NCBI GenBank assembly: GCA_002238605.1
Contig: MPMR01000025.1
Coordinates: 1-61,908 of the forward strand
Direction: 5' to 3'
DNA: 61,908 bases
Source: BD2-11 clade cluster bacterium bin43
GTDB taxonomy: Bacteria > Gemmatimonadota > Gemmatimonadetes > Longimicrobiales > Gaopeijiaceae
Shown here piece after piece: positions 36,600 through 48,688 of this stretch. Both the position numbers and the translations under genes were made by a program. Each line of letters begins with the position of its first letter. Position 1 is the stretch's first letter. Below the pieces are notes generated by a model. The model saw only the letters and a program-made list of their open reading frames with translations. It did not search any database and was not told where the DNA came from.

Positions 36600-37439
36600 T
36601 CAGCGCATCCTGATGGCCGCCCCGACGCCCGCGAAAAGGTCCTCGGCGGCATCGTTCAGGCCGACGCCGATCCGGAAATCCCATTGCGCATCGTCGGTCG
36701 TGAGCCAGGTGAGGCCCGCGTTGAAGTAGTGCTCTCCGGGGGCATCCGCGCCGCCGGGCAGAAACGCGTACCATTCGCCATACACGCCGCCGCGCGCTCC
36801 CAGGCCGGCTCCCGCGACCGCGGACTGCGCCCACTCGGCGTAGCTGTCGTCGCCCTCCGCGACGGCCAGGTTGACCTGCGTGCTCCCCCCCAGGGAGAGT
36901 CCGCCCGCCACATCCCAGCCGTAGACCAGGTTCACACCCGGCAGCGCGCGTCCACCGGAGAACAGCGTGCTGCCCGTGGGGAGGGTCATTTGCGGCAGGA
37001 GCGCGAGCGCCGGACGCCGACCCGCCTGCCGGATGAGCTCGAGCTTGGCACCCAGGTAGAGGTCCTCGATCCCGGTTTCGCTGGCTCCGCTCCCGTCGGA
37101 GTCGACGCGGGTCACCGGGGTGGCCGCCAGGCGGAGTTCCAGCCAGTCCGCGGCAAAACCGCCGCGCACCAGCAGTTCGCCCAAGGTATGCGTCTGCACC
37201 GAATTGCCGCCGGACCAGTCTCCGCCGAACGTGTACCCGAACTCGATCTGAAGAACCCCGCGGCCCACGGTGGATGCCGCTTCCGTGAAGTCCGGCCGGT
37301 CGGCGGCCAGGGAACGGAGCGCCGGGGTGGGAGCCGGCGCCCGGGCCGGCTCCTGTGCGCATCCGTCCGCCGGGTGCCCGAGCACCGCACCAACCGCCAG
37401 CGCGGCGGGCAGTACAACGGGAACCAGTCGAGTCGTCAT
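36600..37439 (-). CDS. Outer-membrane beta-barrel protein (Phenol_MetA_deg/transporter-like)
   Basis: The 279-residue protein has a Sec signal peptide (VPVVLPAALAVGAVLGHPADG). It opens the mature part with ADRPDFTEAASTVGRGVLQI, the start typical of the Phenol_MetA_deg family, and alternates hydrophobic and polar residues through about twelve strands, ending GVGAAIRMR. The family is named for a gene near meta-cleavage genes but its members are general outer-membrane proteins of unclear function. It is convergent with the NCS2 permease gene (34 bp) and divergent from the spondin-domain lipoprotein gene. Confidence 0.75.
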   Translation of the reverse strand: MTTRLVPVVLPAALAVGAVLGHPADGCAQEPARAPAPTPALRSLAADRPDFTEAASTVGRGVLQIEFGYTFGGDWSGGNSVQTHTLGELLVRGGFAADWLELRLAATPVTRVDSDGSGASETGIEDLYLGAKLELIRQAGRRPALALLPQMTLPTGSTLFSGGRALPGVNLVYGWDVAGGLSLGGSTQVNLAVAEGDDSYAEWAQSAVAGAGLGARGGVYGEWYAFLPGGADAPGEHYFNAGLTWLTTDDAQWDFRIGVGLNDAAEDLFAGVGAAIRMR

Positions 37440-37553: not shown

Positions 37554-38840
37554 ATGAGCAACGTCATCCGCACCTCGGTCCGCAGCGACGGCCTTCCGCG
37601 CATCGTCCGAAGCTTCCTCTGGGTCGCGGCCCTGGCCGCCTGCGGGGGCGACTCCGGCACCGACCCGCCCGAGGTCACGCCGGAAGACCCGCCGCGCGCC
37701 GCCGCCCTCGCCATCTCCCCCGAGTCGGTGGCGCTCTCGTCGCTGGGCGAAACGGCCGGGTTCAGCGCGACCCTCACCGACCAGAACGGCGCCGCCTTCG
37801 CGGGCACGGTCGCCTGGTCGAGCAGCGACCCGGCCGTGTTCACCGTGACCCCCACCGGAGTGGTCAGCGCCGTCGCGAACGGCTCGGGTACGGTCACCGC
37901 GTCGTACGAGGCGCTGAGCGCGACCGCCCAGGTGGTGGTGGCGCAGGCCCCCGCGGCCGTCGTGGTCGTGTCCGGGGGCGGGCAGGAGGGGATGGCGGGC
38001 AGCACGCTCGCCGAGGCCGTGGTGGTGCGGGTGGACGACGGGGGCGGCTCGCCGGTCGCGGGCGCCACCGTGACCTTCGCGGCGGGCGAGGGGCACGGGT
38101 CGGCCGACCCGGCCATGGTGGACACCGACGCCGGCGGCCTCGCCCGCACCACCTGGACGCTCGGCGACGCGGTGGGCGCCCAGACCCTGACCGCGTCGGC
38201 GGCCGAGGGAGTGTCGGCCGACATCCGAGCGGCCGCGGGCGAGCTTCCGGTTCCGCCCGACTCGGCGGTCTACAGCGTCGCCTTCGAGGCCACCTGGAGC
38301 CCCGCCACCCATCCCGACAACTTCCCCCGCGGCGCGCACTTCTCGCCGCTGATCGGCGCCGTGCACAACGACGGCGTGCGCTTCTGGGCGAGCGGCGAGA
38401 CGGCCACCCCCGGGATCGAGAGCATGGCCGAGACGGGCGGAACCAGCACGCTCAGGTCGGAAATCAGCGCGCACATCCCGGTCAGCGCGCTCTCCATCAT
38501 CGCCGGACCCGGCCTCGGCATCAGCCCGGCGCGCACGACCGTCCGCCGCGTGGTCGTCCGGCTGGACTACCCCCTCGTCACCCTGGTCACCATGATCGCC
38601 CCGAGCCCGGACTGGTTCGTGGGCGTGTCCGGGCTGTCGCTGATGGACGAGTTCGGGCAGTGGGTGGAGGAGCTCGAGTTCACCCTCTATCCGTACGACT
38701 CGGGCACCGACGACGGGACCGGCTACACCTCCGCCAACGCCGAGTCCTCGCCCAGGCAGCCCATCCACAGCCTCCGGGGGATGGCCCCCTTCTCGGACGC
38801 GCCCATCGGGACGTTCACGTTCACGCGCATCGGGGGTTAG
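37554..38840 (+). CDS. Lipoprotein with bacterial Ig-like domains and a Spondin_N domain
   Basis: The 428-residue protein has a signal with lipobox (VAALAAC, Cys30). A BIG2 Ig-like domain covers about 48-130 (AISPESVALSSLGETAGFSA, VAWSSSDPAVFTV). A BIG1-like domain covers about 131-225 (DGGGSPVAGATVTFAAGEGH). A Spondin_N domain covers about 237-428 (YSVAFEATWSPATHPDNFPR, FSPLIGAVHNDGVRFWASGE, SPDWFVGVSGLSLMDEFGQW, GTFTFTRI). In animals Spondin_N is found in F-spondin-type matrix proteins, and it also occurs in bacterial secreted proteins. The layout suggests a surface adhesin. The tail-proximal WFVGVSGLSL pattern matches the domain's conserved core well. Confidence 0.82.
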   Translation: MSNVIRTSVRSDGLPRIVRSFLWVAALAACGGDSGTDPPEVTPEDPPRAAALAISPESVALSSLGETAGFSATLTDQNGAAFAGTVAWSSSDPAVFTVTPTGVVSAVANGSGTVTASYEALSATAQVVVAQAPAAVVVVSGGGQEGMAGSTLAEAVVVRVDDGGGSPVAGATVTFAAGEGHGSADPAMVDTDAGGLARTTWTLGDAVGAQTLTASAAEGVSADIRAAAGELPVPPDSAVYSVAFEATWSPATHPDNFPRGAHFSPLIGAVHNDGVRFWASGETATPGIESMAETGGTSTLRSEISAHIPVSALSIIAGPGLGISPARTTVRRVVVRLDYPLVTLVTMIAPSPDWFVGVSGLSLMDEFGQWVEELEFTLYPYDSGTDDGTGYTSANAESSPRQPIHSLRGMAPFSDAPIGTFTFTRIGG

Positions 38841-38983: not shown

Positions 38984-40036
38984 TCAGGCCTGAGAAGGTT
39001 TGCGAGCCAGAAAACAGTACAGCGGCGTGAAGATACCCGTCTTGCCGCCCGCCACATACGCCTCCGCGGTCCGATCGAGGAGCCGGACGACTTCCGCCGA
39101 GCCATTCGGAAAGAGCCGCAGCAGCTCGGCCAGCTTCGATCCCGCGATGATCGCCTTGCGGCCCCACGGAAGCCTTACCAAGGCGTTCCCCAACGTCCCG
39201 TGGCGACTCTCCATGGGCTGATACCAGGGCGTGGAGGGTCCCTCCTGTACGTCCCAGTCCCTTCCCTCGATGACTTGAAATCCCGCGGCTTCGAGCGCGT
39301 GATTCACTTCCTCGAACGTGGCGATGTCGTGCAGCGCGATACCGCGCATGAGATCCTGCTTGACGGCCCGGTGCCGACCGTCGTTCGGATCGAACCGGTC
39401 CGTAAGACACATTTCCTGACCCCAGAACAGGGCACCCGGTTTCAGCACGCGGAATATCTCCGCGAAGGCACGCTGCTTGTCCTGCGCATGGCATGTTGAC
39501 TCTATGGCGTAACCCCGGTCGAAGGTGTCGTCCTCGATGGCGCTCATGTCCATGAAGCTGCACCCTATCAAGTCCACCAGGTGTTCGAGCCCCGCCTCGG
39601 CGTTCAACTTCTTCGCTTGCGCCAGCTGGACCTCATTGATGTTGATACCCACGACCCTGGTGCCGGTCTCGCGGACGACGCGGCGCATGGGGCCGCCGAT
39701 CCCGCAACCAACGTCGACCACCGTCATGCCCTGTTCCAACTCCAGCTCGGCGATCATCGCGCGCTGGTGCCGGACCTTGGATTCCTTCAGACTTTCATGA
39801 GGCGTAAGGGGCGCGAAATGCAGGGATTCACCCCAACCCCACACCATGAAGCCGTTGCAAAGCTCGTAGTATTCCCTGACCGTTTCCGCGTGGTCGTAGC
39901 CGCCGGCGTCTCCGGTCTCCGGCACCGCCCGGTCGACCCAGCCGTTGAAGTATCGCACGCGACGCGCGACGCCCGATCCGCGGTACGCATCCCTCAGCGC
40001 TTTCGACAGTTCGCCCAGTCGGATTCGGTGCCTCAA
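38984..40036 (-). CDS. Sterol C-24 methyltransferase (ERG6/SMT-like)
   Basis: The 350-residue protein transfers methyl from S-adenosylmethionine, by family knowledge to C-24 of a delta-24 sterol side chain. SMT region I is VWGWGESLHFAP (65-76; plant and fungal enzymes have YEYGWG-S-FHF). The SAM motif is DVGCGIGGP (108-116) and region II is AIESTCHA (177-184). Region III is TPWYQPM (269-275), and the C-terminus GGKTGIFTPLYCFLARKP is that of eukaryotic SMTs. Length and motif order match ERG6; cyclopropane synthases and ubiquinone methyltransferases lack these sterol boxes. It starts at TTG 40036, overlapping the P450 stop by 4 nt (TTGA), so the two are co-translated. Substrate, and whether sterol is endogenous or host-derived, is unknown. 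Confidence 0.88.
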   Translation of the reverse strand: MRHRIRLGELSKALRDAYRGSGVARRVRYFNGWVDRAVPETGDAGGYDHAETVREYYELCNGFMVWGWGESLHFAPLTPHESLKESKVRHQRAMIAELELEQGMTVVDVGCGIGGPMRRVVRETGTRVVGININEVQLAQAKKLNAEAGLEHLVDLIGCSFMDMSAIEDDTFDRGYAIESTCHAQDKQRAFAEIFRVLKPGALFWGQEMCLTDRFDPNDGRHRAVKQDLMRGIALHDIATFEEVNHALEAAGFQVIEGRDWDVQEGPSTPWYQPMESRHGTLGNALVRLPWGRKAIIAGSKLAELLRLFPNGSAEVVRLLDRTAEAYVAGGKTGIFTPLYCFLARKPSQA

Positions 40037-42084
40037 GCAGGCAACTCGCGCCGCTGCTCCGTGATGCGGAACTTCAGCTTCTTGCTGGGCTTCATCGACG
40101 GAAACGGATTGAATTGGAGTTTCCGCGCGTACTTCGCCGGCGACACCTCAATCGTGAAGTGATGCGCCAGCATCAGCAGGTTGACCGTCAGGTGCATCTC
40201 CATCCACCGCGTGCCGAGACACCTGTGCGTGCCCAGCCCGTACGGGGCGAACCCGAGGCTGTCATGCTTCTTGCGCGACGGCAGGAAGCGGTCGATGTCG
40301 AACTTGTGGGGCTCGGGAAAGACGTCGCTCATGTAATGCGTGGCGGTCATGGCGATGTGGATCCGTTCCCCCAGGGGCAGCTCGTGGTTCTCGACCACGC
40401 AGGTATTCATCACGTTGCGAACCGACATGGTCACGATCGGGTACATGCGCAGGCACTCCATGAGGAAGCGGTGCGTCACGTCGATGTTGGCGGGGGTGAA
40501 GTCCTCCTTCCCGGGGTCGCCGTTGGCGAACAGGGCATCCGCTTCGGCCTGGATCCTGGCGTACAGGTCCGGCTGCGACGCCATGGCGTAGACCATGAGG
40601 CTGAACGTATCGCCGAGGTACACGCTGGCAATCAAGGCTGCGGAAAAAGAGAAGAGCAGGTTGGACTCCGGGAGAAACTGCGGGTCGCTCGCGTGCAGGC
40701 TGAGATAATCGTCCACCAGGTTCCGCGGGCCGTCCGCCCGTTGGCCGGGCGTGTTGACCTGCAACACCCGTTCCATCAGGGTGTCCAGGGTCTTCGCCCG
40801 GCGTTTCATGCCTGGGGTATTCAACGTGAACCTGGGCAGGAGTCGGGCGATATGCACGCTCAGGGCCCGTTCCTTGTACGTCATCAGGTCGTCCATGAGA
40901 TCTTGCGTATCGACGCCGATGAACAGCGGTGAAAGCTGGGCGTTGACGAACGCCCGGGACATGGACGTGGCGCGGTAGGAATCCCCAACCGTCAAGCTCG
41001 CCATGTATGCGCGGCCCCTGTCGTAGAGCTGATCCATCTGCCCTGCCAGCCTCGCCTGGGAATAGGCCGGCGCCAGGAACTTGCGAAGCCGGAAGTGATC
41101 GGCGCCGTCCAGGGCGGGAAGGACGCCGGCCGCACCGTACACCTTCTCGAAATCGCTGAAGTAGTCCCTGGTTCTCAGGTGCTGCCGCCCCTGCTTGTGC
41201 ACCCAGCGGTTCGTTTCGAGTCCGGCCAGGAAGATCAGGGGCTTCGAGAAGGGAGGGCGGACACTGAACACCGGGCCGTATTCCTCCGCGAGGTGCCCGA
41301 ATAAGGCGTTCAGGTTGCCGTCCCGAATATGCGGGTTGGCCAGCAGCTTGCGCAGCGGAACCGTCGGAATCTTCTTGGAAAGAGCGGAATGTCTGCGGAT
41401 TGGGCCGACGAGATTCCGAGAGACCGCATCGGCAATGGACCGGCCGATCAAGTCCATCTGGCAGACGAACTTGATGCGCTCCTCCGCCTTCTCATCGAGT
41501 TCAAAAATCAGGCGAAAGACGTCGCACGTATTGACGAGGCATACGATGACGACGTCTCTGGGGTCGGGAATCTGGTCGGTGAAGAGAACCTTGCCGATCC
41601 GCGCCTTGATGAACCGGTCGGGCGTGCCTTCCGCAGACATCCCGTACTGTTGCCCATGCAGGACGGTGGGGGACAGCGTCCAGAATTCGCCTTCGTGGTG
41701 TTGGAGGATATCCCGTTCAACCAGGCGCGCCAGAGTAATATCGATGACCGACTCCGCACGGGACGCGAGCCGTTCGATCCAGTACCGGGCAGTGTGCTGT
41801 TCCGGTGCGTCCACGATTTCCCGCAGGAAGGGGTCCAGGACGGGATCGCCCGTTTCGGCCGGGTCCACGGCGAACAGGGATGTCAGGTCCGAGTCGAGCC
41901 GCGACCGGAAGGAGAGTTCCGCCAGCACTCCGCCGACGACGGCGCAGTTCAGTTGCCAGCCGGGTACCTGATGGAAGTAGCCGCCCTTCTCGTCGAGAAG
42001 CATCAGGATGAGTTCGTCGACCAGGCTCAGGGGTTCACCCGTCGAACTTTCCGCCGTCTCCGCCGTTTTCGCCCTGTCAGTCAT
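40033..42084 (-). CDS. GPP34 (GOLPH3/Vps74-like) domain fused to cytochrome P450
   Basis: From ATG 42084 the 683-residue protein has two parts. Residues about 18-225 match GPP34: SLVDELILMLLDEKGG, LNCAVVGGVLAELSF, TGDPVLDPFLREI, the W-x2-RL and LARLVERDIL helices, and a late VIVCLVNTCDVFRLIFELDE helix. Residues about 250-683 are a P450 with I-helix LGDT (about 490-493), ExxR E543-R546 (FLMECLRMYP), PERF-like FPEPHKFDIDRFLP and heme loop FAPYGLGTHRCLG with Cys622. It is normal P450 length after the GPP34 part. GOLPH3 proteins bind PI4P membranes in eukaryotes; bacterial GPP34 functions are poorly known. No ferredoxin partner is adjacent. It is coupled to the SMT, so a sterol substrate is likely but unproven; CYP51-specific motifs are not seen. 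Confidence 0.88.
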   Translation of the reverse strand: MTDRAKTAETAESSTGEPLSLVDELILMLLDEKGGYFHQVPGWQLNCAVVGGVLAELSFRSRLDSDLTSLFAVDPAETGDPVLDPFLREIVDAPEQHTARYWIERLASRAESVIDITLARLVERDILQHHEGEFWTLSPTVLHGQQYGMSAEGTPDRFIKARIGKVLFTDQIPDPRDVVIVCLVNTCDVFRLIFELDEKAEERIKFVCQMDLIGRSIADAVSRNLVGPIRRHSALSKKIPTVPLRKLLANPHIRDGNLNALFGHLAEEYGPVFSVRPPFSKPLIFLAGLETNRWVHKQGRQHLRTRDYFSDFEKVYGAAGVLPALDGADHFRLRKFLAPAYSQARLAGQMDQLYDRGRAYMASLTVGDSYRATSMSRAFVNAQLSPLFIGVDTQDLMDDLMTYKERALSVHIARLLPRFTLNTPGMKRRAKTLDTLMERVLQVNTPGQRADGPRNLVDDYLSLHASDPQFLPESNLLFSFSAALIASVYLGDTFSLMVYAMASQPDLYARIQAEADALFANGDPGKEDFTPANIDVTHRFLMECLRMYPIVTMSVRNVMNTCVVENHELPLGERIHIAMTATHYMSDVFPEPHKFDIDRFLPSRKKHDSLGFAPYGLGTHRCLGTRWMEMHLTVNLLMLAHHFTIEVSPAKYARKLQFNPFPSMKPSKKLKFRITEQRRELPA

Positions 42085-42334
42085 CGGCTCTGTCTCTCCG
42101 CATCTGAGATGGACTACGCGGGACTGCCGCTGGGTCGACGCCACGAAAGCATCAGACGCAGTGCAGGGAGTATAGCACCGGAACAACCATCACAAGAATA
42201 GCCGTGATAGAGAGAACGCCGCAACCGAGCGGCAAAGGCCGTTGGCGACCGAGCCAGCTCGCCTCACCCGCTCGGCGTCAGGCGGGATCAGCCCGTCGCA
42301 TAGGCTGAAAAAAGCAAGATGACATTATCGACGG

Positions 42335-45300
42335 TTACGCCGAAGTCGGCTCCGGCATCGCAGGGCGGACATCCGAGCGGCCACGCGCCCGTGCCCGCCG
42401 CGCAAGCCAGCGCTGGTGGAGCGAGGTAAGCGCCGGCACGAGGAGCATCAGCAGGACCGTGGTGAAGAGGATGCCGCAGCCGATCGAGGTGGAGAAGGGC
42501 ACGAAGAACTGGGCCTGAGTCGCGTCTTCGAGGATGAGGGGCGTGAAGCCGAGGAAGGTGGTCAGCGACGTCAGCATGATCGGGCGGAAACGCCCCTTGG
42601 CGCCCTCGATGATCGCTTCTCGCGCCGGAAGGCCTTCCTCGAGCTCCTGGTCGATAAAGTCGATCATGACCAGGGAGTCGTTCACCACCACGCCGGCGAG
42701 GCCGAAGACCCCGATGAAGGACTGGGAGCTGAGTGCGACGCCCAGGACCCAGTGGCCCAGAATCACCCCGATCAACCCGAACGGGATGATAGCCATAATG
42801 ATGAACGGCTTGGTATACGAGCGCAGCGGAATCGCGAGCAGCGCGAAGATCAGGATCATGGCGATCCCGAAGCCGGGTCCCAGCGCGTTCAGGGATTCCA
42901 GCTGCTGCTGCGGTTCACCTCCGAAGGAGTAGGTCAGTTCCGGGTCCTCGGCGACGATCGCCGCGAGGATGTCGTCTTCCAGAATGCGGTTGGCGCGCCC
43001 GCCGGATATCACCGCCGGATCCACATCCGCAGTGACCCTGACGATGCGCTGGCCGTCCTGGCGATGGATGGCGGGCGGCGACATGCCCGAACTCAGCGAA
43101 GCCACACGGCTCACCGGGACCTCGGCGCCGCCGGCCGTCCGAACCAGCGACCCTTCGATGTCGGTGATCGAGTTGCGCTGCTCCTCGGGCAGCCGCACGT
43201 ACACCAGAACCTCTTCGCGGCCGCGCTGCACCCTGAGCGCTTCCGCGCCGAAGAACGCGGACCGCGTCTGCCACGCGAGGTCCTCGAGGGTGAGACCGAG
43301 AGTTCGCGCTTCGGGCAGCAGTCCCAGCTGGATCTCAGGGATGCCGGGAGTGTGATCGGAGCGGATGTCGTGGATGCCTGCCACTTCGCGCAGGTCATTG
43401 ACGACCGCGGTTGCGATCCCCGGGAGGCGGTCGGGATCCGGATGAGCCAGCACGGCCTCGACGGGGTTGCCCAGATCGTAGATTGTGCCGCTGATGGTGA
43501 GCGCGCGCACATAGGGCAGGACACCCAGCTCCTCGCGCCACGCCTGCACGACATCTCCCGTGGGAATCCGCCGGTGCTGCGCGTCCAGCAGCTTGAACGA
43601 TATGGTGGCGACATTGGGCTCCGGGTTCAGGGTGAGGTTGGGACTGAGCCCCCCTCCATCTACTCGCGGCCGTTGACCGACGATAACCGTTACCCCGGAC
43701 AGCAGGGGCGGCGCATCGGTGGGCCTGTCTGCGGAGATCCGCTCGATGACCCGGTGGCCGGCCGCCTCCAACTCGCGCGCCACCTCGTAGGTTCGCTGGG
43801 CCGTCGTCCCGTCCGGCATCTCCAGGGTGGCCGTTGCGAAATCGCCTTCGACCTCCGTGGAAAAGATGAATGGAACGATGCCCGCCGGCAGCATGGCAAA
43901 GCACAGGATGAGGAGGGCGATGGCTGACGAGAGCGTCACTCCGGGTCGATCAGTCGCGAAACTCACGCCGCGGTGCAGGGGGCCCTGCACGAATCTGCCC
44001 AACTGCAGATCGACCTGACCCTGAATCCGGGATACGAATCGCTCAAGGCGCGTTCGGGGCGCCCACTCCGGTCCGTGGAGGTGGTGAGAGAGGTGGTTGG
44101 GCAACACCAGCAGCGATTCGATCACCGAAATCACCAGCATCGCGATGACGATGGTCGGCAGCGCTTTCCAGGTCTCTCCGATCCCTCCGGGAATGAAAAG
44201 CAGAGGAGAGAACGCGGCGATCGTGGTCAGCACCGCGAAGATGAGAGGCACCTTGATTCGCCGGGCCCCGCGTATCGCCGCGACGACGCCCGGCGTTCCC
44301 CGCATGCGTTCCAGGTGGATGTACTCGGAGACGACGATCGCATCGTCCACGACGATTCCGATGGCGAGCACGAACGAGAAGAGGGACACCGCGTGGATGG
44401 CGAGGTCGAACGCCATCATGGCGGCCAGGGCGCCGACGCCGGACACCCCGAGGCCGACGGCTACCCAGAAGGCAAGCCGGAGTTCGAGAAACAGTCCCAA
44501 AGCCAACAGCACCAGCATCAGCCCGAGAAGACCATTCTTAATGAGGATGGCGGCGCGCTCCTCGAAGGCATCGGATGAATCGTTCAGGATGGTGACGCCC
44601 ACGCCGTCCGGGAGTGACGGGGCCACCTCTTCGGCGACGTGCTGCCGAACGGCGCCCGCCACATTCATCACCTTCTCGCCCTCGGCCCTCGATACCTCGA
44701 CGAAGACGGCCGGCAGACCATCGTGCCGGACGATCAGGTCCAGGTCCTGGAAGCCGTCGCGCACCTCGGCGATGTCGCCCAGTCGTACCACCGTGCCGTC
44801 CCCGCGGCTGAGCAGGACGATCTCCTCGAAGTCCTGCTGATCGTAGCTCTGTCCCAGGGTGCGCACCCGCACCTGGGACTGCTCGGTGTCGATGCTGCCG
44901 GCGGACAGATCCAGCGAACTGCGGCGAATCGTGTTGGCGATATCCGGGAGCGTGAGTCCAAGCGCTCTGAGCCGCTGCAGCGGCACTTCGATCGAGATCT
45001 CATAGTTGCGGATGCCGCTCGTCTCTACCTGGGAGACGGCAGGCAGCGCGGCGAGTTCATCCTCGATCTGGTAGGCAAGCTCCTTCAACGTCCGCTCGGG
45101 GACATCGCCGTAGACGACCAGGCGCATGATGCTCTCGGCGTTGGTCATCTCCCTGATCTGGGGCCGCTCGGCCTCTCCCGGGAACGTCTGGATTCGGCCG
45201 ACCGCCGCTTCCACCCTGGCCACGGCATCGTTCATGTCCGTGCCCGACCGCATTTCCACCCTGACCGACGCCATGCCCGGGGCCGCCGCGGACTTCACCG

Positions 45301-45568
45301 CCTTCACGTTGCCCAGCCCTTCGACCTCGTCCTCGATCTTGGCGACGATGGACTCCTCCACCTCCTCGGGGGTGGCGCCCGGATAGGCGACGGAGACCTC
45401 GACCTGATTGAAGGGCACGGTGGGCCAGGCTTCCAGCTCGAGCCCGAAAAACGACGCCACGCCCGCGACGATGATGCCGACCATCAGCAGGTTGGCGGCC
45501 ACGCCGTTGCTGGCCATGTAGGCGATGGGACCGCCGGGTTCGCCGTGATTCCTTCCGTTCGAAGTCAT
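42335..45568 (-). CDS. RND superfamily inner-membrane permease (AcrB/HAE-like)
   Basis: The 1077-residue protein has the N-terminal helix, the PN/PC porter half-repeats (VSVAYPGATPEEVEESIVAK), and the proton-relay helix FVLAIGIVVDDAIVVSEY with paired Asp. A second half-repeat is present, with VFGLAGVVVNDSLVMIDFID near the C-terminus. Tripartite pumps normally need a membrane-fusion protein and an outer-membrane channel; neither is adjacent. It lies between the Rieske oxygenase and the P450-SMT pair on the same strand (gaps 173 and 250 bp), so it may move the product of that locus, but an ordinary drug efflux pump caught between them cannot be excluded. A 120-bp remnant of a close relative is at 38851-38970. 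Confidence 0.92.
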   Translation of the reverse strand: MTSNGRNHGEPGGPIAYMASNGVAANLLMVGIIVAGVASFFGLELEAWPTVPFNQVEVSVAYPGATPEEVEESIVAKIEDEVEGLGNVKAVKSAAAPGMASVRVEMRSGTDMNDAVARVEAAVGRIQTFPGEAERPQIREMTNAESIMRLVVYGDVPERTLKELAYQIEDELAALPAVSQVETSGIRNYEISIEVPLQRLRALGLTLPDIANTIRRSSLDLSAGSIDTEQSQVRVRTLGQSYDQQDFEEIVLLSRGDGTVVRLGDIAEVRDGFQDLDLIVRHDGLPAVFVEVSRAEGEKVMNVAGAVRQHVAEEVAPSLPDGVGVTILNDSSDAFEERAAILIKNGLLGLMLVLLALGLFLELRLAFWVAVGLGVSGVGALAAMMAFDLAIHAVSLFSFVLAIGIVVDDAIVVSEYIHLERMRGTPGVVAAIRGARRIKVPLIFAVLTTIAAFSPLLFIPGGIGETWKALPTIVIAMLVISVIESLLVLPNHLSHHLHGPEWAPRTRLERFVSRIQGQVDLQLGRFVQGPLHRGVSFATDRPGVTLSSAIALLILCFAMLPAGIVPFIFSTEVEGDFATATLEMPDGTTAQRTYEVARELEAAGHRVIERISADRPTDAPPLLSGVTVIVGQRPRVDGGGLSPNLTLNPEPNVATISFKLLDAQHRRIPTGDVVQAWREELGVLPYVRALTISGTIYDLGNPVEAVLAHPDPDRLPGIATAVVNDLREVAGIHDIRSDHTPGIPEIQLGLLPEARTLGLTLEDLAWQTRSAFFGAEALRVQRGREEVLVYVRLPEEQRNSITDIEGSLVRTAGGAEVPVSRVASLSSGMSPPAIHRQDGQRIVRVTADVDPAVISGGRANRILEDDILAAIVAEDPELTYSFGGEPQQQLESLNALGPGFGIAMILIFALLAIPLRSYTKPFIIMAIIPFGLIGVILGHWVLGVALSSQSFIGVFGLAGVVVNDSLVMIDFIDQELEEGLPAREAIIEGAKGRFRPIMLTSLTTFLGFTPLILEDATQAQFFVPFSTSIGCGILFTTVLLMLLVPALTSLHQRWLARRARARGRSDVRPAMPEPTSA

Positions 45569-45741
45569 TGTGCCGGATTGGCCTCGGTCTGGAGGGGCTT
45601 CTGGTTTCGCAACGGCGCCGCACCAAAGATAGGAAAATGAGGAGATTCCTGCCCGGCTGGAGGCCTCGGTTCAGCCCAGTCCTCGATGGCAGCTACCCGA
45701 CTCCTCGACTTGCAGCAGAAGAAGAAGTTCTTCGGGCAATC

Positions 45742-46854
45742 TCATGTGCCGTTCCCCTCCGGCAGATGCCCGGATGCAGCGCGACCCGTCCACTGGCGGC
45801 GTAAACTCCCCCCTGTCTCCAGATCTGCTTCCGGATAGAACTGTCGGCTATAGAGGCGGTATTTTCCGATAGGGCCGTCGGCCCGGCACAGACGCGGAGG
45901 AGACTGGTAGCGCTTTCGCTCCCAGATGACCACGTCCTGCGCGACGAACCGCCTCTCCTCGGAAATCAGAACGCGGTTCATCAGCCTGTTGCGGAACTTC
46001 CTCGGCAGGAACCCCAGACCGACGATGTACCGCCCCGGCTTCCGCACCTCCCGCGCCTGGCTGACCAAGGTCAGATCGACGAGCTCGCCGTCGACGGGGG
46101 TCGACAGGACCCACAGTCTCGAATCCATGCCGATGGTCTTCTCGTGGACCTCGACGAACGAATATCCCAGACCATGGACGTGGGTGACGGCCGATACCTC
46201 GGATTCGACGCCGATCAGTCCCGCGATGGTCCGGACGTTCTTGAAGTCGAAGCAGCTCTTCAGATATGCGCCGTCGATCGAGAATGCGGTCGGTTCCACA
46301 TCGTGGTAGCCGTGCGTGTACTCCAGGTGCTCTACGTCCACGGAGTTCTCGGCGGTCTCCTGGGGGTGGCCGCGGAACCGCATGGTGGCGAATCGCAGCC
46401 CGCTCCAGTCCGCCCCCGTGGGCGGCTCCTCCGGCAGATGCCACTGGGGCGCTCGCCCGCCGACGCCCCACCAGGCGAAGACCATGCCCAGGATCTCGGT
46501 CGTCTCGTAGAGCTTCAGCTTCGCGGCCCGCGGGGCCGGGGCGTTGGGCGTGGAGACGCACCGGCCGGCGGTATCGAAGGTGAACCCGTGGAAGGGACAT
46601 ACCAGGCAGCCGTCCCGGATGGTGCCGCCGGCCGCCGGTCCCAGGTGCGAGCCCAGGTGGGGGCAGAACGCATCGGCCACGCAGACGCGGCCCTCCTCGT
46701 CGCACCACGCGACGATCTCCTCGCCCATCCAGGTCTTCTCGATCAGCCGCTCTTTCAGCAGGGTCTCGCGGGCCGCGATGAAGTACCATCCCTCCGGGAA
46801 CGGCGGGAGTGCATCGATGCGCCGCGGGATCCGCCCGTTGCCCTTCATGATCAT
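45742..46854 (-). CDS. Rieske non-heme iron oxygenase, oxygenase subunit
   Basis: The 370-residue protein has an N-terminal Rieske domain with the 2Fe-2S ligands CPH (Cys64, His66) and CPFH (Cys86, His89), and a C-terminal catalytic domain. The latter has the mononuclear iron motif D-x2-H-x4-H (Asp173, His176, His181 in DVEHLEYTH). The start GWYFIAARE and the order of motifs recall steroid-acting relatives (KshA, DAF-36/Neverland 7-desaturase, bacterial sterol C-4 demethylase SdmA), but other substrates are possible. No reductase or ferredoxin is adjacent. It leads the minus-strand series Rieske-RND-P450-SMT. ATG 46854 or 46848 could start it; GGAG lies just upstream of both. Confidence 0.88.
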   Translation of the reverse strand: MIMKGNGRIPRRIDALPPFPEGWYFIAARETLLKERLIEKTWMGEEIVAWCDEEGRVCVADAFCPHLGSHLGPAAGGTIRDGCLVCPFHGFTFDTAGRCVSTPNAPAPRAAKLKLYETTEILGMVFAWWGVGGRAPQWHLPEEPPTGADWSGLRFATMRFRGHPQETAENSVDVEHLEYTHGYHDVEPTAFSIDGAYLKSCFDFKNVRTIAGLIGVESEVSAVTHVHGLGYSFVEVHEKTIGMDSRLWVLSTPVDGELVDLTLVSQAREVRKPGRYIVGLGFLPRKFRNRLMNRVLISEERRFVAQDVVIWERKRYQSPPRLCRADGPIGKYRLYSRQFYPEADLETGGSLRRQWTGRAASGHLPEGNGT

Positions 46855-46884
46855 GCGGCTCCGAGTTGCTGAAGTGTCGCTGGT

Positions 46885-46898
46885 CGAGCCCGGGCTCG
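46885..46898. promoter_or_regulatory. Perfect 14-bp palindrome upstream of the Rieske gene
   Basis: CGAGCCCGGGCTCG is self-complementary without a spacer and lies 31-44 bases upstream of the Rieske ATG, where an operator could overlap the promoter. GC-rich palindromes also arise by chance in this genome, so this is only a candidate. Confidence 0.3.
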
Positions 46899-46969
46899 TG
46901 AGACCCGAGCTAACTGCTGCCCTCTTCCGCCGTTACGGACTCTGTAAAATATCGCGCCGAGAGCGCAGT

Positions 46970-46998
46970 TTGGCAAACACCTGCGACAAAAATATGAT
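46970..46998 (+). promoter_or_regulatory. Sigma70-type promoter for the AAA-nuclease gene
   Basis: TTGGCA at 46970-46975 and TATGAT at 46993-46998 are separated by exactly 17 bases, in a locally AT-rich stretch. A transcript starting near 47005 would have a leader of about 100 bases before ATG 47108, or 25 bases before the GTG at 47030, which has GGTGGAGGG upstream. Confidence 0.5.
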
Positions 46999-47107
46999 AA
47001 TAAGCGACAATTTCGGTGGAGGGCGCAGCGTGCGTACCATGCGGGCGGGATGCCGGCGTGGGCCGCCCGCCTTGCTCGTCGCGCGGCAAAACGGCAAGCT
47101 TGCCCAC

Positions 47108-48688
47108 ATGCGCCGCTTCAACACCGCCGGTCCCGTCCGTCCCGCCGAGCACTACTGCGTTCCGCCGCTTGAGCGGCTTCATCTGGGCGAGTTGCTGGCC
47201 CTTGTTCGCGGCAAGCAGTACTTCGTGCTTCACGCCCCGCGGCAGACGGGCAAGACGTCCCTGCTGTTTGCTCTGCGCGACCTGCTGAACAGTGGGACGG
47301 AGGGCGCGTACCGCTGCGCGTACGTGAACGTGGAGATGGCGCAGACGGCGCGCGAGGACGTTGGGCGAGCGATGGGCGCGATCGTGGACGAGATGGGGGC
47401 GGAGGCGCTGGACACGCTGGGCGACTCCGACACCGCCGGGTTGGCGTCGTCGATGGATACCACGACTCGGCCGGACACCGCGCTCCGGAGGTTGCTCGCC
47501 CGCTGGGCCGGGGCCGATCCCAGGCCGCTCGTTCTTCTGATTGACGAGATCGACGCGCTGATCGGCGACTCGCTTGTGTCGGTGCTGCGGCAGCTGCGAG
47601 CAGGGTATCCGCGCCGCTCGCGGCACTTTCCGCAGTGCGTGGTGCTGTGCGGTGTGCGGGACGTGCGCGACTATCGCATCCACGCAGGCTCGGAGCGCCA
47701 GCCGATCACGGGGGGCAGTGCCTTCAACATCAAGGCGCGGTCGCTGCGGATGGGCGACTTTACGGAAGCCGAGGTCCGTGCGCTGTACGCGCAGCACACG
47801 GAGGCGACCGGACAGGAGTTCGCGGAGGAGGCCCTGGCCGCCGTCTGGGGGCAGACGTGCGGGCAGCCGTGGCTCGTGAATGCGCTGGGGCGGGAAATGT
47901 GCTTCAAGCACGAGGAGGCGCGGCCGCGCTCGCAGCCGATTTCGGAGGCCGACGTCTACGAGGCGCGCGAGGCGCTGATCCTGCGGCGGGAGACGCACCT
48001 CGACCAGCTGACCGACAAGCTGCGGGAGCCGAGGGTGCGCAGGGTCATCGAGCCGTTGCTGAGCGGAGGCAACGCGGGGTATTCGGACCTGGACCGGGAG
48101 TACGTCCGCGACCTCGGGCTGGTCGCGGGGGACCCTCCGCTCCGGATCGCGAACCCGGTCTACGCGGAGGTGCTGCCCCGGGTGCTGACCTGGGTGCTGG
48201 AGGACGAAATGCCGGGCGGGACGGCGTCGTACGTGAAGCCGGACGGGAGCCTGGGCATGGACCGGCTGCTGGGAGCGTTCCAGGATTTCTTCAGGGAAAA
48301 CTCGGAGCACTGGATCAAGCGCGCCCAGTACACGGAGGCGGGTCCGCAGCTGGTTCTTCAGGCGTTCCTGCACCGGGTGGTGAACGGCGCGGGGCGCATC
48401 GAGCGTGAGTACGCGCTGGGAAGCCGCCGGGTGGACCTGCTGGTGTTCTGGCCCCGCGGCGAAGGCCGGAACGACAAGTATGTGGTGGAGTGCAAGCTTC
48501 TCCGGGGGAGCCGTGCCCGGACGGTGGAACGGGGGCTCGAGCAGACGGCGGCGTACATGGACATCTCGGGGGCCGAGGCCGGGCATCTCGTCGTCTTCGA
48601 CATGCGCGAAGGGAGGACCTGGGCGGACCGACTCTTTCGCGAGAGGCACGAACGGGGGAACAGAAACATCACCGTATGGGGGATGTGA
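47108..48688 (+). CDS. AAA ATPase with C-terminal PD-(D/E)XK nuclease-like domain
   Basis: The 526-residue protein begins RRFNTAGPVRPAEHYCVPPL. Walker A is APRQTGKTS (43-51) and Walker B is LVLLIDEIDAL (about 140). A helical lid with a winged-helix-like section (QPWLVNALGREMCF) follows. The C-terminal domain reads EREYALGSRRVDLLVFWPR then KYVVECKLLRG, the D-x(n)-E-x-K core of restriction-like nucleases. Such ATPase-nuclease proteins are common in accessory and defence-rich regions, but a role in immunity is not shown. In-frame starts also exist at 47030 (GTG, good ribosome-binding site) and 47039 (ATG). I kept 47108 because family members begin with this FNTAGP segment. The amidase gene follows after 10 bp. 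Confidence 0.8.
   Translation: MRRFNTAGPVRPAEHYCVPPLERLHLGELLALVRGKQYFVLHAPRQTGKTSLLFALRDLLNSGTEGAYRCAYVNVEMAQTAREDVGRAMGAIVDEMGAEALDTLGDSDTAGLASSMDTTTRPDTALRRLLARWAGADPRPLVLLIDEIDALIGDSLVSVLRQLRAGYPRRSRHFPQCVVLCGVRDVRDYRIHAGSERQPITGGSAFNIKARSLRMGDFTEAEVRALYAQHTEATGQEFAEEALAAVWGQTCGQPWLVNALGREMCFKHEEARPRSQPISEADVYEAREALILRRETHLDQLTDKLREPRVRRVIEPLLSGGNAGYSDLDREYVRDLGLVAGDPPLRIANPVYAEVLPRVLTWVLEDEMPGGTASYVKPDGSLGMDRLLGAFQDFFRENSEHWIKRAQYTEAGPQLVLQAFLHRVVNGAGRIEREYALGSRRVDLLVFWPRGEGRNDKYVVECKLLRGSRARTVERGLEQTAAYMDISGAEAGHLVVFDMREGRTWADRLFRERHERGNRNITVWGM

Follow-up and report, generated by a model that had tools for sequence, protein, structure and literature searches.

Four minus-strand genes of the BD2-11 clade bacterium bin43, encoding a Rieske oxygenase, a permease of the RND superfamily, a cytochrome P450 fused to a GPP34 domain and a relative of the sterol methyltransferases (SMTs), probably constitute a horizontally spread sterol-remodelling module of sponge and coral symbionts that works on sterol from outside. 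The genes lie in a stretch of 61,908 nt (the window), contig C60 in a genome of 4.47 Mb and 97% completeness:

38984-40036, minus strand: SMT-like SAM methyltransferase of a divergent clade, 350 aa, TTG start
40033-42186, minus strand: fusion of a GPP34 (GOLPH3-like) domain with a cytochrome P450, ORF of 717 aa
42335-45568, minus strand: RND-superfamily permease, HAE1/AcrB-like, probable exporter, 1077 aa
45742-46854, minus strand: Rieske non-haem iron oxygenase of the KshA_C type, 370 aa

The ORFs and Pfam searches confirmed the four genes at 38984-46854 that a preliminary description of this DNA had named, together with the 4-nt overlap between the P450 and SMT genes, in which the letters TTGA combine the TTG start of the SMT gene with the TGA stop of the P450 gene. 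All Pfam scores were far above the cut-offs: the SMT matched Methyltransf_11 with 65.4 bits and Sterol_MT_C with 57.5 bits (cut-offs 21.2 and 21.7), the fusion protein matched p450 (122.2 bits) and GPP34 (99.2 bits), the permease ACR_tran (534.7 bits) and the Rieske protein KshA_C (83.3 bits) and Rieske (57.5 bits). Promoter and terminator scans of the locus gave results at chance level. The module is directly adjoined by a gene for a Spondin_N protein with bacterial Ig-like repeats (37554-38840, plus strand); Spondin_N is an animal-type extracellular domain, found here in an apparent symbiont. Next to it, a PF13557 (Phenol_MetA_deg) protein that may form a channel for hydrophobic compounds in the outer membrane is encoded at 36600-37439 on the minus strand, and this gene is not kept with the module elsewhere. 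On the other side, a 714-aa ORF with an AAA ATPase region (46544-48688, plus strand) extends across the 5′ end of the oppositely oriented Rieske gene, and the real start of this ORF is probably downstream of the called one.

A joint function of the four genes had been proposed in the preliminary description, with gene order in related genomes as a check. We looked for the window-type SMT in 121 genomes of the bacterium's own family and found a close relative (at least 67% identity) in 19, 17 of which belong to two genera, g1 and g2. The SMT and P450 genes were at most 5.6 kb apart in 16 of these 19 genomes; two of the three exceptions have an SMT gene that reaches a contig end, and the third has the two genes on separate contigs, far from the ends of these. 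The Rieske gene was located no more than 9.4 kb from the SMT gene in 14 of the 19. Scanning 84,980 species genomes, we obtained 267 SMT relatives, the best 80 of which (68-91% identity) were kept as loci. Within about 10 kb of the SMT gene, these best 80 of 267 carried a P450 in 69 cases, a Rieske gene in 57 and an RND gene in 31, and in most of them the P450 was a GPP34 fusion. For the 44 loci with both flanks, among the same 80, the corresponding counts were 38 for the P450 and 35 for the Rieske gene. The linkage of the four genes is more than chance. Order and orientation followed 17 different arrangements over 12 NCBI phyla in the best 80 of 267 loci, which argues that the association is not simply inherited gene order. 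The genes of the proposed module, then, stay together over about 12 phyla despite their shuffled order, in line with one conserved module. The SMT is not an obligatory member, since roughly half of the g1 and g2 genomes with both the Rieske and the P450 genes do not have it. Read from the isolate names, among which Porites lutea, Rhopaloeides, Coscinoderma and Ircinia- and Aplysina-style prefixes occur, the loci apparently come from sponge and coral symbionts.

In a quick SMT tree that gave long-branch warnings and had nine canonical bacterial SMTs as its reference sequences, the 76 window-type sequences formed one branch (SH-aLRT 100) apart from the canonical enzymes. This tree mixes phyla, which indicates that the module spreads horizontally: the sister of the window SMT belongs to a Bryobacterales (Acidobacteriota) MAG, five further Acidobacteriota SMTs nest among those of Gemmatimonadota, and 16 phylum changes are required among the phylum-assigned rows. 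Among the best 80 of the 267 relatives, the one nearest to the window SMT (91% identity) is encoded on a 626-kb contig of an Acidobacteriota MAG. The between-locus distances of SMT, P450 and Rieske proteins correlated with each other (Mantel r 0.58-0.77, p 0.0005), as expected if the genes travel together.

Where the sterol might come from was examined through the genes needed to make it. It had been noted that no cyclase or epoxidase is encoded nearby, and this observation holds for all 4.47 Mb of the genome, in which neither the cyclase model PF13243 nor the squalene epoxidase model PF08491 had a match. The genome thus does not hold the oxidosqualene cyclase and squalene epoxidase that mark de novo bacterial sterol clusters. 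A cyclase was also absent from all 19 family genomes with a window-type SMT, most of them more than 90% complete. Within g1 and g2, cyclases were found in none of the 17 genomes with this SMT versus 6 of the 17 without it (Fisher p 0.018, kinship ignored). Gaps in MAGs weaken single cases and not the pattern; the absence of the cyclase is strong for the group and no proof for each genome. Since the own genome cannot make the triterpene ring, the sterol would come from outside, and with neither cyclase nor epoxidase in this genome and no cyclase in the 19 family genomes, the substrate is most likely sterol of the host or of a co-symbiont. The earlier suggestion of a substrate that is not self-made, possibly host sterol, is strengthened by these absences. 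A self-made hopanoid, considered as another candidate, is ruled out in this genome, which has no cyclase.

Beyond the family, both Dadabacteria genomes examined were likewise without a cyclase. Among 44 module genomes of other phyla, 10 had an SE-OSC-type cyclase (defined by scores of about 185-196 bits in frames of more than 1,100 residues, a type that Pfam confirmed in L049, L056 and L060), 16 had no cyclase over the cut-off and the rest had cyclases of squalene-hopene type by score. Most carriers of the module would therefore be tailors and not makers of sterols, because most module genomes lack an SE-OSC-type cyclase. In four Nitrospirota loci (L047, L049, L056 and L060) genes of de novo sterol synthesis stand no more than a few kb from the module; pooled over the loci, since not all of them occur in each stretch examined, these neighbours comprise ERG24, CYP51, a fusion of squalene epoxidase and oxidosqualene cyclase, a canonical SMT, an SdmA-like Rieske protein and a 3beta-HSD-like protein.

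The SMT-like protein has the methyltransferase core and the Sterol_MT_C domain of the Erg6/SMT family and does not group with canonical bacterial SMTs in the tree. In Erg6p, C-24 methylation passes through a cation that the aromatic residues of Region I (Y81-EYGWG-86) stabilise, and one glutamate at the flank of this region has a catalytic role (PMC6997595, PMC5711494, PMC10968281). Region I of the window clade reads FMVWGWGESLHF, so that the Erg6p signature Y81-E-Y-G-W-G is broken by the replacement of Tyr81 by Met and of Glu82 by Val; Met64 was present in 82 of 82 members and Val65 in 77 of 82. The GWG core of Region I is largely retained in the clade, and the canonical SMTs from the same loci retain FYE[FY]GWG. 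The window enzyme should still methylate, since it keeps both the SAM motif and the Glu of Region III. A structure search with the SMT model retrieved general class I methyltransferases only, which do not separate sterol from small-molecule substrates. The nematode 4-SMT illustrates that the position of methylation can shift when Region I changes (PMC6997595). With a separate clade and a fixed change of the Region I Tyr-Glu to Met-Val, the initial label 'sterol C-24 methyltransferase' ('C-24 METHYLTRANSFERASE') goes too far, and so does the side-chain-methylated product, since the enzyme may methylate C-24 or another position. What endures of the earlier interpretation is the joint module and the outside substrate.

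The P450 part of the fusion protein is canonical at its haem site, with Cys656 and the ExxR motif invariant in 30 homologues. In an HMM alignment, the I-helix motif (A/G)Gx(D/E)T aligned to A520-S-V-Y523-L, with Tyr523 in 30 of 30 homologues, and the canonical acid/Thr pair was missing. Ordinary monooxygenation is not assured with such an atypical I-helix; judging by this motif, the enzyme may act as a peroxygenase, as an isomerase or as a monooxygenase whose proton delivery is altered. As far as the sequences tell, neither a known SMT reaction nor a known P450 reaction can be assumed for the module, the Region I and I-helix pairs both being lost. The best profile match was CYP51 of M. capsulatus (119.7 bits), and the fold comparison was near-tied between CYP46A1 (Z 34.2, rmsd 2.9, 403 residues aligned), BM3 (33.2) and CYP51 (32.7). 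In the AF2 model of the fusion (pLDDT 79.5) the first ~49 residues are disordered, with pLDDT below 50, and because they are unsupported the true start is probably downstream of 42186. The eukaryotic GPP34 domain binds a membrane phosphoinositide and, by analogy, the domain may serve here to recruit the P450 to the membrane. A literature search of partial coverage found no relevant paper on a GPP34-P450 fusion. Several GPP34-P450 paralogues are carried by family relatives, and the fusion thus represents a larger bacterial family. The own genome also encodes a second, distant GPP34-P450 (C17:105565-107289, 30% identity) and, at C28:87258-87860, a GPP34 protein that stands alone. At six loci (L052, L055, L076, L077, L084 and L085) another GPP34-P450 subfamily (39-40% identity) stands beside the same SMT clade, which indicates that the fusion partner is exchanged within its own family.

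The closest solved relatives of the Rieske protein are 3-ketosteroid 9alpha-hydroxylases (KshA), with 111 bits against 79 bits for the next family. Both domains of a KshA-like steroid Rieske oxygenase are present, and the Rieske ligands C64, H66, C86 and H89 and the iron motif D173-x2-H176-x4-H181 were invariant in 29 homologues. Like KshA, the protein has the KshA_C domain and keeps the iron ligands; unlike KshA, it lies outside any steroid-degradation cluster, and its identity to that nearest solved relative is low. An identity as SdmA, the 4beta-methylsterol monooxygenase, was rejected, since NF052579 scored 33.4 bits with a cut-off of 600. The SdmA-like Rieske protein near the module in L056 carries a VanA_C domain instead of KshA_C. 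Degradation of the steroid rings was probed by one proxy, the model TIGR03213 for the ring-cleaving extradiol dioxygenase, which had no match in the own genome; this test is a weak one, as the model also gives weak matches in control genomes.

The permease matched ACR_tran with 534.7 bits versus 28.4 bits for MMPL, which assigns it to the HAE1/AcrB type; it lacks the MMPL/HAE3 architecture of BstA/HpnN-like proteins and fell below every NCBIfam equivalog cut-off. It resembles BstA/HpnN (PMC10942540) in belonging to the RND superfamily and adjoining sterol genes, and differs in being HAE1/AcrB-like, only the replacement exporters elsewhere being of MMPL type. The proposal of sterol export by an RND protein accordingly keeps its superfamily, with an HAE1/AcrB-type pump in place of an HpnN-like BstA and with export as a putative role. 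In other phyla the HAE1-type RND protein is swapped for MMPL-type RND proteins, as in a Chloroflexota locus (L067:11052-13529, minus strand) whose replacement pump has a Sterol-sensing domain (47.6 bits). Of the 44 loci with both flanks (among the best 80 of 267), 34 hold one of three RND-superfamily exporter clusters. Several HAE1 copies are accompanied by an HlyD-type partner; within the window, no membrane-fusion protein was found beside the permease.

When the neighbour genes of the best 80 of the 267 loci were clustered, 38 loci had a FAD amine-oxidase-like protein and 11 had an ERG4/ERG24 reductase. The own genome has both, each on a contig other than that of the module, and they are 79-84% (FAD protein) and 68-80% (reductase) identical to module-associated copies from several phyla; they are likely further members of the module. 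The FAD amine-oxidase-like copy (C46:129347-130696) reaches 84% identity with one from a Nitrospirota module, and the reductase (C38:31635-32687) is 80% identical to that of a Gemmatimonadota locus (L033) and 77% to that of a Dadabacteria locus (L086). An ERG4/ERG24-family sterol reductase is hence present in this genome despite the absence of a cyclase. In the partial stretch around the two genes, no obvious sterol genes were seen among the ORFs called.

We propose the following mechanism, with sterol as the presumed substrate and the steps in a presumed order. Sterol from the animal host or from a sterol-producing co-symbiont would enter the inner membrane, where the KshA-type Rieske enzyme would oxidise (or desaturate) the ring system and the GPP34-P450, putatively recruited to the membrane, would oxidise or rearrange the sterol. 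The divergent SMT-family enzyme would add a methyl group from SAM, the ERG4/ERG24 and FAD proteins would adjust double bonds, and the RND-type pump would take the product from the inner membrane towards the outer membrane or the outside, that is, it would export and not import. The positions modified and any benefit are likewise presumptive.

Other explanations were weighed against this mechanism. A substrate other than a sterol, such as a different isoprenoid or some other lipid (hopanoid, carotenoid or quinone), is unlikely; the enzymes of the module would then only descend from sterol enzymes. Such a substrate would fit the altered chemistry to which the Region I and I-helix changes point, and squalene-hopene-type cyclases occur in many module genomes of other phyla; however, hopanoids are excluded in the own genome, its 18 relatives and both Dadabacteria, and the module adjoins complete sterol clusters and is accompanied by ERG4/ERG24 reductases and a sterol-sensing exporter. 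A sterol module limited to the three enzymes, with the RND protein serving in general efflux as a defence against drugs or toxic host lipids, is very unlikely. Although the HAE1 type of the RND protein, the window without an adjacent membrane-fusion protein and the linkage in only 31 of the best 80 loci (of 267) would agree with general efflux, some RND exporter from the three clusters is found in 34 of the 44 full loci, which argues that the role is kept and the protein exchanged, and several HAE1 copies have their HlyD-type partner.

Even less probable is de novo synthesis of the sterol, with the missing genes in assembly gaps or unrecognised: the SE-OSC-type cyclases in 10 of 44 module genomes of other phyla speak for it, but the 19 SMT-bearing family genomes, most of them above 90% completeness, have no cyclase, and the own genome is also without a squalene epoxidase. 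Least credible of all is steroid catabolism, in which the Rieske protein would be a KshA, host sterol would be food and the other genes would be incidental. KshA is indeed the nearest solved relative, yet the single proxy TIGR03213 is unmatched in the own genome, and catabolism leaves the conserved adjoining SMT and exporter unexplained. Remodelling of sterol from outside therefore remains our preferred reading.

The pathway of STRM-1 and DAF-36, the latter a Rieske enzyme, offers an analogy, likened by description: in both cases an SMT with altered Region I and a Rieske protein would act on sterols made elsewhere. The nematode does not make sterols, and its sterol C4-methyltransferase STRM-1, a member of the SMT family without the Region I residues, acts on a scavenged 3-oxo sterol and works alongside DAF-36 (PMC6997595). 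The differences are that the organism is a nematode and that the substrate is a 3-oxo sterol. Among bacteria, working SMTs of sponge symbionts have already been published (Brown et al. 2023, PMC10070321). The window SMT shares with these sterol 24-C-methyltransferases Methyltransf_11 and Sterol_MT_C, the WGWG core, the SAM motif, the Region III Glu and the kind of host. It differs from them in its separate clade, in the change of YE to MV in Region I and in its linkage to a GPP34-P450, a KshA-type Rieske gene and an RND pump, with a cyclase absent in most cases. In Ircinia symbionts, steroid gene clusters with ERG24-CYP51-ERG7 have been described from about 10 phyla, with horizontal transfer and often an SMT nearby (Kelly et al. 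2022, PMC9531527). Those clusters, too, are horizontally spread sterol genes in sponge symbionts of many phyla; however, they make sterols de novo, whereas cyclase, CYP51 and C-4 demethylase are all absent from the window module, which neighbours a cluster of that type in some lineages only. The main text of PMC9531527 has no mention of GPP34 or Rieske proteins. What appears to be new is thus a cyclase-free tailoring and export module with a divergent SMT clade, a conserved GPP34-P450 and a swap of exporters.

C-26 methylation of sponge sterols is without a known enzyme (PMC10070321). As a tentative and rather doubtful extension of our reading, the SMT clade could methylate sterols where no characterised bacterial SMT does (for example at C-26, or at C-4 of a 3-oxo sterol), and at the same time the shared module could let symbionts of about 12 phyla convert host sterols to unusual sponge sterols, including biomarker precursors.

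The oldest animal biomarkers proposed so far are founded on sponge sterols, and it is disputed who makes the odd side chains of these compounds. The present analysis names a compact gene set, consisting of the divergent SMT, the GPP34-P450, the KshA-type Rieske enzyme, the exporter, the FAD protein and the ERG4/ERG24 reductase, and suggests that symbionts of many phyla, often unable to make sterols, reshape those of the host or of a neighbour. A module kept by selection in so many symbiont phyla means that symbionts may edit, and not synthesise, host sterols, and it predicts cross-feeding within one sponge, from sterol makers (e.g. Nitrospirota) to sterol editors.
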